From a virus, in the IMG/VR virus record IMGVR_UViG_3300037493_002298, positions 1 through 32,232 of that record: a stretch of DNA of 32,232 nt. One strand, given 5' to 3'. Of this stretch, positions 1,757-12,920 are shown piece by piece. Within the stretch, counting starts at the first letter, position 1; each line of letters opens with the position of its first letter. A program made the position numbers and the translations under genes. Below the pieces are notes generated by a model. It worked only from the letters and a program-made list of their open reading frames with translations. It ran no database searches and was not told the origin of the DNA.

Positions 1757-3041
1757 TGACAGGGTGCCACCGCACGACGAGGCGAGTGAGCGTGCGCTGG
1801 TTGGTGCGATGCTGGTGGACGGCAGTGTGGTCGGCATGGTGGAGCCGGTACTGACACCGAACGATTTCTACCTGCCACGGATGCGGCAGATGGTGGCGGC
1901 GGTCTTGGACCTGTGGCGCAGCGGTGAGGCGATTGACGTGACCACCGTGTCGGCCTGGTTGCGGTCTGCTGGGCAGCTGGACACGGTTGGCGGTGACATG
2001 GGAATCATGGAGACGCTGGGCGGTGCGGGCTTTGTTGGTAACGCTGGCAGCTACATGAGCCGAGTTGCTGAGTGTGCGAGCTACCGACGCCTGATTGAGT
2101 CGTGCCGTGACGGCATGGATGCCGCCTATGCGCAGACGTTGCCACCTGGCGACCTGGCCGATTGGGTCGGGCAGGCAGCGGCCGACGCACAGATTGCAGA
2201 CACGATGGAAGTGCCTGACGACCTGACCACGATGGATTCATTCTTGGACCGGCCGACGAGTAGCCGTCCACCCTGGGTCGTGCCGGGCCTGGCCCGTGTC
2301 GGGTGGCGGGTGATGGTTGTTGCGTCCGAGGGCGTAGGCAAGACCGTTCTGTTCCGACAGATTGGGCTGGCAGCTGCGCAGGGCGTCCACCCGTTGCACT
2401 ACCGGCCGATCCCGCCTGTGCGGGTACTGATTGTGGACTTGGAGAACCCGGACGACAGCATCATTGACGTGTGCGAGCCGATTAGGCGGCAGACGATGGC
2501 GAAGGTGCAGGACGGCTACGACAGCGACCGGGCCTGGTTGTGGCACCGTCCGGGCGGCGTGAACCTGCGCAAGCGCAAGGACCGGAGCGAGTTGGAGGCG
2601 GTGCTGGCGCACGTGAAGCCTGACCTGGTCTGCCTCGGCCCGATCTACAAGAGTTATCGGGTGGAAGCACGCGAGAGTGACGAGCTGGCAGCGTCTGAGG
2701 TGATGGCAGTGTTCGACGAGTTGCGGACCCGGTACCGCTTCGCACTGATGCTGGAGCACCATGCGCCGAAGGGCAGCGGCGGCTACCGGGACCTGATGCC
2801 CTACGGGTCCAGCCTGTGGCTCCGCTGGCCCGAGATCGGCCTGAAGCTGACACCGAAGGACGATGAGAACCGGGTGATGGTGGTTGGCCGCTGGCGAGGT
2901 GACCGCCTGAAGAACGCCTGGCCGATGGAGCTGGAGCGTTCGCAGCCGTGGCCCTGGGCTGGCATCTGGCCCGAGGGCTATCTGAACGAGCCTGATGGTG
3001 CAGCTGCACCAGCCGAGCAGGAGATGAACTATGACTTCTGA
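1746..3041 (+). CDS. DnaB/RepA-type replicative DNA helicase
   Basis: A 431-residue protein with a DnaB-like N-terminal helical domain (about 8-115; ASERALVGAMLVD near residue 13 is the typical opening) joined to a RecA-fold ATPase of the RepA/AAA_25 type. Walker A is SEGVGKT at 194-200. VRVLIVDLENP near 225-235 is the strand carrying an acidic Walker-type residue, and GPIYKSY near 300 and the HHAPKG segment near 338-343 fit the later RecA-core motifs. It is probably the fork helicase. Start GTG 1746 is preferred because AGGAGA ends five bases upstream. It overlaps the loader-like gene by 11 bp and the next gene by 11 bp. Near its 3' end is a perfect 16-bp palindrome (2996-3011). Confidence 0.85.
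   Translation: MRRDDRVPPHDEASERALVGAMLVDGSVVGMVEPVLTPNDFYLPRMRQMVAAVLDLWRSGEAIDVTTVSAWLRSAGQLDTVGGDMGIMETLGGAGFVGNAGSYMSRVAECASYRRLIESCRDGMDAAYAQTLPPGDLADWVGQAAADAQIADTMEVPDDLTTMDSFLDRPTSSRPPWVVPGLARVGWRVMVVASEGVGKTVLFRQIGLAAAQGVHPLHYRPIPPVRVLIVDLENPDDSIIDVCEPIRRQTMAKVQDGYDSDRAWLWHRPGGVNLRKRKDRSELEAVLAHVKPDLVCLGPIYKSYRVEARESDELAASEVMAVFDELRTRYRFALMLEHHAPKGSGGYRDLMPYGSSLWLRWPEIGLKLTPKDDENRVMVVGRWRGDRLKNAWPMELERSQPWPWAGIWPEGYLNEPDGAAAPAEQEMNYDF
2996..3011. repeat. 16-bp perfect palindrome in the helicase 3' end
   Basis: TGGTGCAGCTGCACCA is a perfect inverted repeat with no loop. It contains the octamer GGTGCAGC on both strands, a word that recurs many times in the window. It lies about 20 bp before the start of the next gene, where a regulator could act, but coding constraint or chance is possible. 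Confidence 0.5.
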
Positions 3042-3231
3042 CTACGACGAACTGACGTTCGGCGAGTGCGATCACGAGTGGACGTGCTGGCGGTGCGGCA
3101 GTAGGCAGGACAGCGCACCGAACAACCGCCTCGGGAACTTCGTGGCGGCGGTGGTGGCGCTGCTGCTGCTGGCCGTCACGATCACTCCGTTGCTGTGGCT
3201 CGTTCGGGTCTCTTGGGCCTGGGCGCTATGA
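3031..3231 (+). CDS. small zinc-knuckle membrane protein
   Basis: A 66-residue protein. The N-terminal half has a C-x-H and C-x2-C pattern (GECDHEWTCWRCGS, about residues 11-24) that could bind zinc. The C-terminal half (about 36-62) is a long hydrophobic stretch, VAAVVALLLLAVTITPLLWL, enough for one transmembrane helix and ending in aromatic residues. The predicted topology is a cytoplasmic metal-binding head with one anchor. It overlaps the helicase gene by 11 bp. A holin-like role is possible, since the window has no clear holin, but the metal knuckle and early-operon position argue against it. Function unknown. Confidence 0.7.
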   Translation: MTSDYDELTFGECDHEWTCWRCGSRQDSAPNNRLGNFVAAVVALLLLAVTITPLLWLVRVSWAWAL

Positions 3232-3242
3232 AAGGAATCACT

Positions 3243-3482
3243 ATGACTGAACCTGCACCTGACTTCTGGAGCTGGCTCCAGGTTGGTGTCATGCACGGCT
3301 GGGTCACTGAACCCGTGTGCCAGACGCATGACTGCACGCCGATGACGTTCGACGAGGAGGCCGAGTTCGAGGATGGCGGCGACCCGTGCGTGACGGTGGT
3401 TCGGGTCTGGACGGAGAAGGTCTGGGACGACGAGCGGCAGCTGGCCGAGGCTGCGGTTGTGGATTCTGTTACTCCCGAGTGA
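3243..3482 (+). CDS. conserved small acidic phage protein
   Basis: A 79-residue protein containing FWSWLQVGVMHGWV (about 9-22), CQTHDCTPMT, and EEAEFEDGGDPCV, ending in a Trp-containing strand. I recall similar short proteins with a THD-x-x-PM-(T/S) and EEAE(F/W)E-GGDPC pattern in actinobacteriophages, with no known function. The C-x3-H-x-C grouping and the later Cys could bind a metal. ATG 3243 is chosen over upstream in-frame starts because AAAGGAA (3231-3237) sits at a good distance. It is the last gene of the replication operon; a structured non-coding region follows. Confidence 0.75.
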   Translation: MTEPAPDFWSWLQVGVMHGWVTEPVCQTHDCTPMTFDEEAEFEDGGDPCVTVVRVWTEKVWDDERQLAEAAVVDSVTPE

Positions 3483-3493
3483 CACAATGGGTC

Positions 3494-3601
3494 TGCGGGT
3501 CCAGGCGTTGCGACTCGGCCCTCCCGGTCAGCCTGGTGCTCCATGTCAGGCGGTCGCCCGCGCGTGGTGGCGCGGATTCCCTTCTGACGCCTGGACCCGC
3601 A
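3494..3601 (+). ncRNA. candidate structured RNA (cloverleaf-like, 15-bp closing stem)
   Basis: TGCGGGTCCAGGCGT (3494-3508) is exactly complementary to ACGCCTGGACCCGCA (3587-3601). Two G-U pairs would extend the stem inward. Three hairpins fit inside: 3512-3529 (GAC, bulged T, CGG / CCGGTC, 5-nt loop), 3531-3551 (GCCTG/CAGGC, 11-nt loop) and 3558-3575 (CCGCGC/GCGCGG, 6-nt loop). Together they make a four-way junction. It is not a tRNA: the closing stem is too long and there is no recognisable T arm or CCA context. CACAAT (3484-3489) could be a weak -10 that would start a transcript near the closing stem. Its class and strand are unknown. It might instead be a DNA-level signal or the 3' end of the upstream transcript. 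Confidence 0.45.
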
Positions 3602-3648
3602 TTCACTCCGGCCTGCACCTGGCACCCTGCCCGAATGTTACGAACGTC

Positions 3649-3677
3649 TTACGACTGTGAAGGGCAGCGGGTAGGGT
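3649..3677 (+). promoter_or_regulatory. candidate promoter for the lysis/fibre block
   Basis: TTACGA (3649-3654) and TAGGGT (3672-3677) are separated by 17 bp, and the -10 is preceded by CGGG as at several other candidate promoters in this window. Transcription would begin near 3684, just before the leader hairpin at 3687-3715. The -35 match is weak. Confidence 0.4.
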
Positions 3678-3686
3678 AGAAAGCGA

Positions 3687-3715
3687 CAGCCGACCTCATA
3701 GGACGAGGTCGGCTG
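3687..3715 (+). promoter_or_regulatory. perfect 11-bp leader hairpin upstream of the transglycosylase
   Basis: CAGCCGACCTC (3687-3697) and GAGGTCGGCTG (3705-3715) are exactly complementary around a 7-nt loop. No T-run follows, so it is not a standard terminator. It would lie at the very 5' end of a transcript from the candidate promoter at 3649-3677, leaving the Shine-Dalgarno AGAGGAGAAG unpaired. It may stabilise the mRNA or act as an attenuator. Confidence 0.55.
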
Positions 3716-3739
3716 CGCCTACAACAGAGGAGAAGAACC

Positions 3740-4150
3740 GTGAGCCGGAAACTCGCTTCGTCATTCCTGGTTGCTGCCGTCATGGTAGCAACCCTCGGCA
3801 CCGTTGCCGACGTGGCCACAGCTGCACCAGCGGCACCAGCCGCACCCGTGGCCCGCACCTGGGCCGGACCCTGCCATGCTGCCGTGGACGCCTACTGGCC
3901 CGCACAGTGGAGAGCCTGGGGACATTCGATAGTCCATCGAGAGTCTCGCGGAATCCCAACCGCAGCGAATCCCCGCTCGTCAGCCCGAGGGTGCTTCCAG
4001 ATGTTGCTGCGCTACTCGGCACCGTTCTACCGGGCCGTAGGTTGCTCGAATGCTTCCTGGTCGAATGCGACGTGCAACGTGCGAGCGGCGCTCGTGATGC
4101 GTCAGCGTCATGGCACCTGGCCGTGGAAGATGCCTACCCGTCGTCGTTAG
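3740..4150 (+). CDS. secreted lysozyme-like transglycosylase
   Basis: A 136-residue protein with an N-terminal signal peptide: basic MSRK, a hydrophobic core at about 5-23, and an Ala-rich probable cleavage site near residues 28-35. The mature part has a lysozyme/soluble lytic transglycosylase fold signature: IVHRESRG at 64-71 with a likely catalytic Glu68, then ANPRSSARGCFQML, the Gly-x-x-Gln-Met strand seen in this superfamily. Three or four Cys may form disulfides after export. GTG 3740 has the strong site AGAGGAGAAG upstream. It would cleave peptidoglycan glycan strands from outside the membrane using the host Sec pathway. It stands just before the amidase, so it is probably a second lysis enzyme; a role at entry or in superinfection exclusion is an alternative. 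Confidence 0.7.
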   Translation: MSRKLASSFLVAAVMVATLGTVADVATAAPAAPAAPVARTWAGPCHAAVDAYWPAQWRAWGHSIVHRESRGIPTAANPRSSARGCFQMLLRYSAPFYRAVGCSNASWSNATCNVRAALVMRQRHGTWPWKMPTRRR

Positions 4151-4180
4151 GGAACATCCGGCACGGCCCGTCACGGCCGG

Positions 4181-4192
4181 TACGATGGCCTC
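4181..4192 (+). promoter_or_regulatory. candidate leaderless promoter
   Basis: TACGAT (4181-4186) is followed by six bases and then ATG 4193, so transcription would start at or next to the A of the start codon. No Shine-Dalgarno sequence is present. The hexamer is preceded by CCGG and lies between two GGCC words. Confidence 0.45.
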
Positions 4193-4384
4193 ATGTTCGC
4201 CTGGCTCAAGCGCAAGAGTTCTGATGAGTTGTGCGGCTGCGACCTGGACTTCCGTGACGGTGCCGTAGCCGACGACGACCTCGACAGCCTCGTCCTGTTC
4301 GCAGATGTAGACCCTGGCGACGGTGCTGCTGTGGCGGCACGGGCGGCAGAGTGGCGGCAGCTTGGAGGGCACCATGCCTCGTGA
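4193..4384 (+). CDS. hypothetical small acidic protein upstream of the endolysin
   Basis: A 63-residue protein starting MFAWLKRKSSDELCGCD, then very acidic (DDDLDSLVLFADVDPGDG) and ending in an Ala-rich helix. It has no membrane segment, so it is not a holin. There is no ribosome-binding site, but a -10-like hexamer six bases upstream supports a leaderless start. Its end overlaps the endolysin start by 11 bp, implying coupled expression and perhaps a lysis-timing role. That is context only. Confidence 0.6.
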   Translation: MFAWLKRKSSDELCGCDLDFRDGAVADDDLDSLVLFADVDPGDGAAVAARAAEWRQLGGHHAS

Positions 4385-5207
4385 CACTGGCATCGCTGAC
4401 CGCCTGCGAGCTGCTGGGCTGAAGGTTGTGGAGGTGGCCGGGTGGCAGACGCGCGGCAGTACGTCCTTCAACCCGATTGGCTCGGTGGACCACCATACGG
4501 CCGGACCTCGGACGGGTAACGCTCCGTCGCTGGGCACGGTGGTCAATGGTCGCCCTGACTTGCCTGGGCCGCTGTGCAACGTCCTAGTCGGCCGGGACGG
4601 GACGTGCTACGTCGTGGCAGCTGGCCGGGCGAACCATGCGGGCGCAGGTACCTGGAAGGGTCTTGTCGGCAACTCGACTGTCTTTGGCGTCGAGCGCGAG
4701 AACGTCGGCAACGGCTCAGAGCCGTGGACCCTGGTGCAGTACGACACGGCGGCGAAGGTTCATGCGGCACTGATTCGGGCGCACGGCAGCCGCTGGGACC
4801 TCGTCTGTGAACATAAGGAGTGGGCACCTCGGCGGAAGATTGACGCCTGGGGAGTGGACGGGAACGTGATGCGCGACCTGGTGCGGGACCGCCTGCGGGC
4901 TGCGCCTACGCCTGGCCCTGCGCCTGCACCTGCACCGTCGGGCAACGAGTTCCTCCAGGCTGTCCACAATGCTGCCGTGAATCGGCCGGTCATCAAGCTC
5001 GGCGACCGTGGCAGCTGGGTCAAAGACTTCCAAGAGGGCATAAATCAGGTCGTCGGCCGTCCGGTGCTGGTTGCCGATGGTTCCTTTGGCCCTTCGACGG
5101 AACGCTGGGCGAAGCAATTTCAGAAGGACCACGGCCTACGAGCCGATGGAGTTGTGGGCGTGCAGACCTGGGAACAGATGATCGCTCGCCGTCTGACGGG
5201 CCGCTGA
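4374..5207 (+). CDS. endolysin: N-acetylmuramoyl-L-alanine amidase with peptidoglycan-binding domain
   Basis: A 277-residue two-domain lysin. The N-terminal Amidase_2/PGRP domain (about 15-180) has zinc-ligand signatures: VDHHTAG at 38-44, RANHAG in the middle, and CEHKEWAPRRKID near 150, where the second His and the basic residue lie in the active site. A Pro-Ala linker (about 188-202) leads to a PG_binding_1 domain (about 212-277), with KLGDRGSWVKDFQ, DGSFGPST and HGLRADGVVG as its usual repeats. It cuts the bond between N-acetylmuramic acid and the stem peptide. ATG 4374 follows TTGGAGGG at the right distance. It has no signal peptide, so it would need a holin, pinholin or other access route; none is obvious nearby. 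Confidence 0.9.
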   Translation: MPRDTGIADRLRAAGLKVVEVAGWQTRGSTSFNPIGSVDHHTAGPRTGNAPSLGTVVNGRPDLPGPLCNVLVGRDGTCYVVAAGRANHAGAGTWKGLVGNSTVFGVERENVGNGSEPWTLVQYDTAAKVHAALIRAHGSRWDLVCEHKEWAPRRKIDAWGVDGNVMRDLVRDRLRAAPTPGPAPAPAPSGNEFLQAVHNAAVNRPVIKLGDRGSWVKDFQEGINQVVGRPVLVADGSFGPSTERWAKQFQKDHGLRADGVVGVQTWEQMIARRLTGR

Positions 5208-11814: not shown

Positions 11815-12522
11815 ATGCCAGCAATCAGTGAGACCTACGCATCACCAGGACTGCGCCTGGGACTGCTGCTGGAGGACCATCCGACAGCGACCTACTCCTT
11901 CGACCTGGTGGCAGGTAAGGACATCGGCGTGCCAGACAGCTACGGCGGCGGCAAGAGCTTCTGCCTCTGCACCATCCACTTCGGTGCGGGACGTGCCGAC
12001 GTGACGGCCTGGAAACCTGTGCCGGACAAGGGCAACCCGGACGACTGGAACATCCTCTGCACCAAGACCCTCGGGCGTGCCCTGAAGCGTGCCGGGTACC
12101 CGGACGACCTGAAGGACCTGAAGGCGCTGGTGCTGTGGCGGCAGCGGGACGCCGAGATTGCTGCCATTCGTGGCGGCACGGCACAGGTCGCCATCGCCAG
12201 CGCGAACCAGATTGCGGCGCTGCCAGCGGCCGACCCGATGCAGGCGGCGCTAGACGAGGCAGCTGTGTCCGATGCCGAGGCGATTGGCGCTGACGAGGTG
12301 GACTACGACACGGGTGAGGTACTGGACGCTGCACCGCTAGAGCTGGACGCACAGGGTCAGGACGAGGCGCTACTCATCACCGAACTCGCTAACGGCCTGT
12401 CCGCAGCCGAGGGCAAGAGCTACGCAGCGTTCCTCAAGACCCTGGGCGCACCTGCGGACCCGTATGCGATGTCCGAGCAGGACCGCCACGACGTGCTCGC
12501 CTGGTTGGACCCGGCAGAGTGA
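11815..12522 (+). CDS. conserved hypothetical, DNA-metabolism operon
   Basis: A 235-residue protein. The N-terminal two thirds contain LRLGLLLEDHP, YSFDLVAGKDIGVPDSYGGGKSFCLCTIHFG and DDWNILCTKTLGRALKRAGYPDDLKDLKALVLWRQRDAEI. I associate the latter LCTK-LGRALKRAGYPDD-x-x-DLKAL stretch with a conserved actinophage protein found beside SSB and recombination genes, but I cannot name a biochemical role. The C-terminal third is acidic and Ala-rich. ATG 11815 is chosen with GGAG (11801-11804) upstream; GTG 11800 is in frame too. Position before HIRAN and SSB genes favours a recombination or replication accessory role. Confidence 0.65.
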   Translation: MPAISETYASPGLRLGLLLEDHPTATYSFDLVAGKDIGVPDSYGGGKSFCLCTIHFGAGRADVTAWKPVPDKGNPDDWNILCTKTLGRALKRAGYPDDLKDLKALVLWRQRDAEIAAIRGGTAQVAIASANQIAALPAADPMQAALDEAAVSDAEAIGADEVDYDTGEVLDAAPLELDAQGQDEALLITELANGLSAAEGKSYAAFLKTLGAPADPYAMSEQDRHDVLAWLDPAE

Positions 12523-12920
12523 CGATGACAGGCGTGGCGACGCAGGAGTTTAAGACGGTTGGGCTGTCCTTTGTGGACGCCTATCCGGCGAACCTGCACC
12601 AGCTGGCGGCGCTGCTGGAGGACCGGGAGCGGTCCAGCGGGTGGCAGGCAGTGAACGAGGGCGATGTGACGCCTGGGCTGCCTGCGGTGCTGGTCCGCAA
12701 TCCTGACAACGAGTTCGACCCGAATGCTGTGGAGGTTCACGTGCCCGTACTCGGGCGACGTACTGGCATGATCGGGCACGTTCCGGCCGCTGTGGCGGCA
12801 CGGTTGGCACCGTCGATGGACGGCGGTGCCGAGTGGGCTGCACGGTTGGTGAGGGTGCTGGTTACAGACGGCCACCCTGACCGGCCGGGTGCCCTGATAG
12901 TCATTGAGCGAGAGCCGTAA
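12519..12920 (+). CDS. stand-alone HIRAN-domain protein
   Basis: A 133-residue protein from a GTG overlapping the previous stop (GTGA); ATG 12525 is also possible. VLVRNPDNEFDPNAVEVHV (about 56-74) followed by RTGMIGHVPAAVAARLAP matches the HIRAN domain signature: an N-x-x-D-x-N-A-(V/I) loop, a strand, then G-(F/Y/M)-(I/V)-(G/P)-x-(V/I)-A. In eukaryotic HLTF and Rad5 this domain binds 3' ends of single-stranded DNA. In bacteria and phages it occurs alone or fused to repair enzymes. Followed by SSB after 22 bp, it likely binds DNA ends or stalled forks. The HIRAN call is firm; the role is inferred. Confidence 0.75.
   Translation: MTMTGVATQEFKTVGLSFVDAYPANLHQLAALLEDRERSSGWQAVNEGDVTPGLPAVLVRNPDNEFDPNAVEVHVPVLGRRTGMIGHVPAAVAARLAPSMDGGAEWAARLVRVLVTDGHPDRPGALIVIEREP

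Follow-up and report, generated by a model that had tools for sequence, protein, structure and literature searches.

Intrinsic terminators of mycobacteria are often I-shaped, lack a U tail and lie at most 50 bp from the stop codon (PMC12288462), and clusters of hairpins without U trails are described at many operon ends in 13 genomes (PMC8355165). In typical terminators, the stem is shorter than 14 and the loop shorter than 13 nt in over 90% of cases. The need for a U-tract is disputed for the actinobacterial polymerase, and one cited study finds that the mycobacterial polymerase requires it. Here, we describe a 108-nt structured element of an uncultured phage that shares with the U-tract-less and hairpin-cluster terminators (PMC12288462, PMC8355165) its GC-rich stable hairpins, a position within 50–80 nt of the last stop codon, a non-coding gap and the lack of a U-tract. 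It differs from them in its outer stem of 16 pairs, which encloses a branched structure of 78 nt, and in that termination is a prediction. If the element does terminate or stabilize, it would represent a clean natural case of separating early from lysis transcription without U-tracts in GC-rich actinobacterial phages, a mode of separation on which published data disagree.

The window, that is the whole stretch of DNA analysed, comprises the 32,232 bases of an IMG/VR virus record from a GC-rich phage genome and has no repeats at its ends. Its genes encode a RepO-like initiator, a DnaB-like helicase, an endolysin, an SSB protein, a portal, a major capsid protein and a WhiB-like regulator. An actinobacterial host is indicated by the WhiB-like gene and by the closest phage proteins, which belong to Gordonia, Arthrobacter and Microbacterium phages. 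Since no large terminase is seen among the window proteins searched, the window is probably a fragment of the phage genome. Upstream of the element, all on the + strand, follow the genes for the RepO-like initiator (2.2 kb from the element), a 155-aa protein, the DnaB-like helicase, a 66-aa membrane protein and a 79-aa protein, here p79. The element begins 11 nt downstream of the p79 stop codon and ends 47 nt before the TTACGA (−35 box) of a promoter-like site, which is followed by a leader hairpin, a ribosome-binding site and the lysis genes. The placement between the end of the early operon and the putative lysis promoter, proposed in a sequence-only reading, is thus borne out. The features are:

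3243..3482, + strand: p79, 79-aa ORF, last gene of the replication-side operon (homologues in L084, L048 and further viral contigs; codon score 0.44)
3494..3601, + strand: structured intergenic element, 108 nt (exact 15-bp inverted repeat, 3/400 shuffles, fold z −4.46, no coding signal)
3494..3508, + strand: outer stem 5' arm, TGCGGGTCCAGGCGT
3510..3557, + strand: branched arm, a GCGAC/GTCGC helix with a GGCC/GGTC hairpin and a GCCTG/CAGGC hairpin with 11-nt loop (pair probabilities 0.90–0.98)
3558..3575, + strand: hairpin CCGCGC-GTGGTG-GCGCGG with 6-nt loop (pair probabilities 0.98–0.99)
3576..3585, + strand: pyrimidine-rich 10-nt linker, unpaired by pair probabilities, ATTCCCTTCT
3587..3601, + strand: outer stem 3' arm, ACGCCTGGACCCGCA
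3649..3677, + strand: promoter-like TTACGA, 17 nt, TAGGGT, upstream of the lysis genes (read by eye from the sequence)
3687..3715, + strand: leader hairpin (11-bp stem, 7-nt loop), downstream of the promoter-like site and ahead of the ribosome-binding site of the lysis gene

The consensus promoter scan does not call the promoter-like site at 3649–3677. p79 is a member of a small phage protein family without assigned function (L113–L142), which carries the motif WLxxGxxxGWV...VCxTH...DPC, is common in viral contigs of widely differing GC content and has no PHROGs or Pfam match. On the lysis side, ORF 3740–4150 encodes a secreted-looking protein of 136 aa with homologues of 46–72% identity in L045–L050 and no match in Pfam, PHROGs or phage records; its codon usage differs from the rest of the window. 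In L048, the copy of this gene is preceded by TTGGCA-17-TAGCGT and then a 12-bp hairpin, whose sequence is unrelated to that in the window. A hairpin is likewise located upstream of the homologue in L049.

The two arms of the element show perfect complementarity over 15 bp across a spacer of 78 nt, as first read from the sequence, and represent the longest exact inverted repeat of the window. They sit in a 257-nt gap (3483–3739) without coding signal, and the element is present as a single copy within the window. When the whole 32-kb window is shuffled with dinucleotides preserved, a 15-bp exact pair within 150 nt occurs in only 3 of 400 cases (mean 0.0075), which agrees with the initial claim that the match is improbable by chance. 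Exact inverted repeats of 11–13 bp are more frequent in the window than in the shuffles (12 vs 3.1 at 11 bp), and several of them are intragenic. The shuffle control therefore underrates chance, and the true surprise is somewhat smaller. This excess, the three positive shuffles, the equally strong folds found within genes and the lack of conservation in the relative L084 would all fit an accident of this lineage, in which an inverted repeat in an unconstrained gap arose by chance or is short-lived and can fold, but has no function. We regard such an accident as unlikely, given that no exact repeat of the window is longer, that the gap around it is small and non-coding, and that three more helices of high pair probability fit inside the repeat. 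The element is a real structure of this one phage, probably non-random and non-coding.

The non-coding character was assessed with a model of codon usage built from 20 genes of the window, for which true frames score 0.36 and wrong frames −0.41 on average. An overlapping protein reading frame had been named as evidence against a structured element, and no frame of 3483–3739 looks coding: all six score like wrong frames (−0.21 to −0.49), and GC content is flat across codon phase. ORF 3488–3661 (57 aa), which spans the element, was considered as a hidden protein. Its score of −0.29, where true genes have a 5th percentile of 0.04, shows that it is probably not a gene, with the limit that the test is not absolute, as the lysis gene at 3740–4150 scores −0.09 despite its homologues.

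The 108 nt fold with −64.7 kcal/mol (z −4.46), and none of 200 shuffles is as stable. The element itself thus folds better than shuffled sequence, but the stability is not unique: z weakens to −2.6 when 14–19 nt of flank are included, and in a genome-wide control with 893 windows of 108 nt, z ≤ −4 is seen in 5 and z ≤ −3 in 18. The strongest local RNA fold of the window is found at 12781–12890 (−71 to −73 kcal/mol, z −5.9 to −7.2), within ORF 12519–12920 immediately upstream of the SSB gene.

From the pair probabilities, the shape of the element is that of two nested three-way junctions. The three inner hairpins of the sequence-only reading are all recovered, namely GGCC/GGTC, which contains one G-U pair, GCCTG/CAGGC with its 11-nt loop and CCGCGC/GCGCGG. 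The four-way, cloverleaf-like junction proposed there is not, since the first two hairpins sit within a fourth helix, GCGAC 3510–3514 with GTCGC 3553–3557 (pair probability 0.95). The outer stem reaches 16 pairs via T3509-G3586, with pair probabilities of mostly 1.0. An alternative pairing among CCAGGC/GCCTGG/CAGGC/GCCTGG was considered as the basis of a two-state switch. The best fold without the outer stem has −32.3 vs −64.7 kcal/mol, and there is therefore no balanced two-state switch.

Overall fold energies are equal on both strands. The two wobbles T3509-G3586 and G3518-T3528 pair in the + strand RNA only, which gives a small hint that the sense RNA may be the relevant molecule. These wobble pairs also bear on a function at the DNA level, such as a cruciform or a protein-binding inverted repeat, for example as part of an origin for the RepO-like initiator. 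Such a site would be in line with a repeat that is perfect at the DNA level, with the nearly identical energies of the two strands under DNA parameters (−36.9 and −36.4 kcal/mol) and with the adjoining replication genes. The wobbles, however, favour the + strand RNA, iterons (short direct repeats) are not found beside the element, and the cumulative GC skew is unchanged at this position, so that we consider a DNA site improbable.

We tentatively interpret the element as an operon-end hairpin cluster of the replication-side transcript, either a U-tract-less terminator or a 3'-UTR stabilizer, at a probability that we place somewhat below even. This interpretation is preferred because of the position, the high stability, the non-coding character and the published actinobacterial operon ends without U-tract. 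The replication-side transcript would comprise the RepO-like, DnaB-like, small membrane protein and p79 genes and carry the element at its 3' end. As RNA polymerase exits p79, the inner hairpins would fold first, and the 3' arm would then close the 16-bp outer stem to yield a very stable branched hairpin cluster. The cluster would reduce read-through as a terminator without U-tract, shield the early transcript at its 3' end, or both, and in effect the early transcript would be separated from the lysis promoter 47 nt downstream. While the inverted repeat, its predicted fold, the lack of coding signal and the site between stop codon and promoter-like site are direct observations, transcription of the element, the order of folding and the terminating or stabilizing effect are what we infer from them.

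Several findings are counted in favour of the operon-end hairpin cluster. Beyond the 15-bp repeat in excess of chance, the fold z of −4.46, the pair probabilities of the outer stem, the codon usage and the + strand wobbles, folding of the growing transcript yields the branched arm no later than 3568 and the outer stem no later than 3600. The start of the element 11 nt after the p79 stop agrees with the definition of U-tract-less terminators, one or more stable hairpins within about 80 nt of the last stop codon. Two further p79 loci, L116 and L113 (= L048), carry an exact 10-bp inverted repeat shortly past the p79 stop. Counted against it are the missing U-tract, with a scan of 2900–4500 for classical intrinsic terminators (hairpin and T run) being negative, the interior of 78 nt and the unstructured sequence after p79 in L084. 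While the inner hairpins (5–6 bp stems, 5–11 nt loops) are within the usual terminator size, the outer 16-bp stem around 78 nt is outside.

RNase III processing sites occur in early transcripts of phages, e.g. T7. Similar to these sites, the element is a stable double-stranded stem between phage transcription units; different from them, its 16-pair stem has a branched interior. The proposal of a processing signal, made in the sequence-only reading, overlaps with the operon-end explanation and may hold beside it.

In the same reading, a non-coding phage RNA or tRNA-like decoy was suggested. Its non-coding part holds together with the placement, while the discrete RNA and the decoy are unsupported, because the shape is no cloverleaf, ARAGORN and Rfam are silent and homologues are missing. 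ARAGORN finds no tRNA or tmRNA gene in the window, and Rfam gives no match above the gathering cut-off anywhere in the window nor, up to an E-value of 10, a plausible one close to the element. An identity as tRNA, tmRNA or riboswitch, which the sequence-only reading had not recognized either, is rejected on these grounds. In common with tRNA, tmRNA and tRNA-like phage RNAs, the element has about 100 nt, several hairpins and a terminal closing stem; it deviates from them by its nested three-way junctions and a closing stem of 16 bp. The literature searched for a matching phage RNA holds nothing relevant.

Searches for homologues were negative throughout, in collections that may lack the records closest to the window, and near-identical phages may thus exist. 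Phage and plasmid sequence searches reveal none, and blastn against 396 actinobacterial genomes gives matching pieces of 19–73 nt at chance level. A single-sequence covariance model recovers the window copy alone in 75 sources, has no match at E ≤ 1 when 13 records are searched in full and none in 198 actinobacterial genomes. A discrete small phage RNA of about 108 nt, cut from the early transcript or transcribed on its own and acting in regulation or as a decoy, would account for a compact, stable and non-coding unit with defined ends. Sequence and covariance searches find no homologue, Rfam and ARAGORN have no match, the shape is not a cloverleaf, and the consensus scan shows no promoter immediately upstream; we therefore give this small RNA little credence. 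Very doubtful is its more specific form, a lineage-specific RNA of new architecture, with a 16-bp stem and two nested three-way junctions, that would be released from the end of the replication transcript and act independently, e.g. in lysis timing or by binding a host RNA-processing factor. Were it an RNA in its own right, the element would represent an orphan family that deserves a name; one sequence without relatives offers little leverage at present.

Related loci were collected by scans with the capsid protein (19 loci) and the helicase (27 loci); in genomes, the helicase scan yields one distant Frankia match and one weak match only. The closest syntenic relative is L084, with a DnaB of 71% identity. 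DnaB, the small membrane protein and p79 are all retained; ahead of p79, L084 has an inserted gene that resembles a DNA methyltransferase by its motifs. In the ~420 nt from its p79 stop to the contig end, no strong inverted repeat is present, and fold z ranges from +2.0 to −0.7. This region (8477–8898 of L084) is pyrimidine-rich, with no convincing reading frame or stable fold. We rejected the element as a conserved companion of three nearby genes. For p79, the 260 nt that follow the stop (less near contig ends) contain no exact repeat above 10 bp at the other loci found; for the lysis gene, the element is absent upstream in L045–L049; for DnaB, the covariance search of L084–L108 is negative, and the syntenic L084 is without the element.

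The missing element at the corresponding site of L084 would also be expected for a small mobile, MITE-like cassette whose arms are terminal inverted repeats. The element resembles MITEs in its length of about 100 bp, its intergenic location and its perfect terminal repeats, which are flush with its ends, but it lacks a target-site duplication in its flanks and a second copy in the window. Outside the window, an exact-arm scan of all viral contigs finds 43 loci with one arm and none with both, and both 11-nt arms occur together in none of 84,980 genomes. Word composition is odd under a strand-specific model and just mildly unusual under a strand-symmetric one. The strand-specific signal arises in part because in a strand-polar genome half of the words of an inverted repeat fall on the wrong strand; a horizontal origin by composition, strong under that model only, was therefore rejected. 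Taken together, a mobile cassette appears highly improbable.

Apart from the element, the numbers of putative restriction sites differ among these phages. At least 14 related records lack CCWGG entirely, with 16–49 sites expected in each. The CCWGG-free records are L051, L084, L061, L062, L064, L066, L067, L068, L070, L072, L091, L092, L094, L098 and L100; relatives with the site are L069 (18 sites), L073, L074 and L077. Since it is wholly avoided, the pattern suggests restriction pressure on the CCWGG-free relatives. The window contains 231 CCWGG sites vs 103 expected, with a ratio on the + strand of 212 CCTGG to 19 CCAGG (212:19). CTGGG is found 91 times on the + strand and CCCAG once, vs 31 expected in genes by synonymous-codon shuffling. 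The palindromes GCCGGC, GGCGCC, CCCGGG and GGGCCC are absent from the window genes tested, with 15–35 expected each. The CCCAG/CTGGG bias and the absence of palindromes look like restriction avoidance. In T7, all EcoP15I sites have one orientation (PMC12707154), and the one-orientation pattern of the window recalls this evasion of a type III system.
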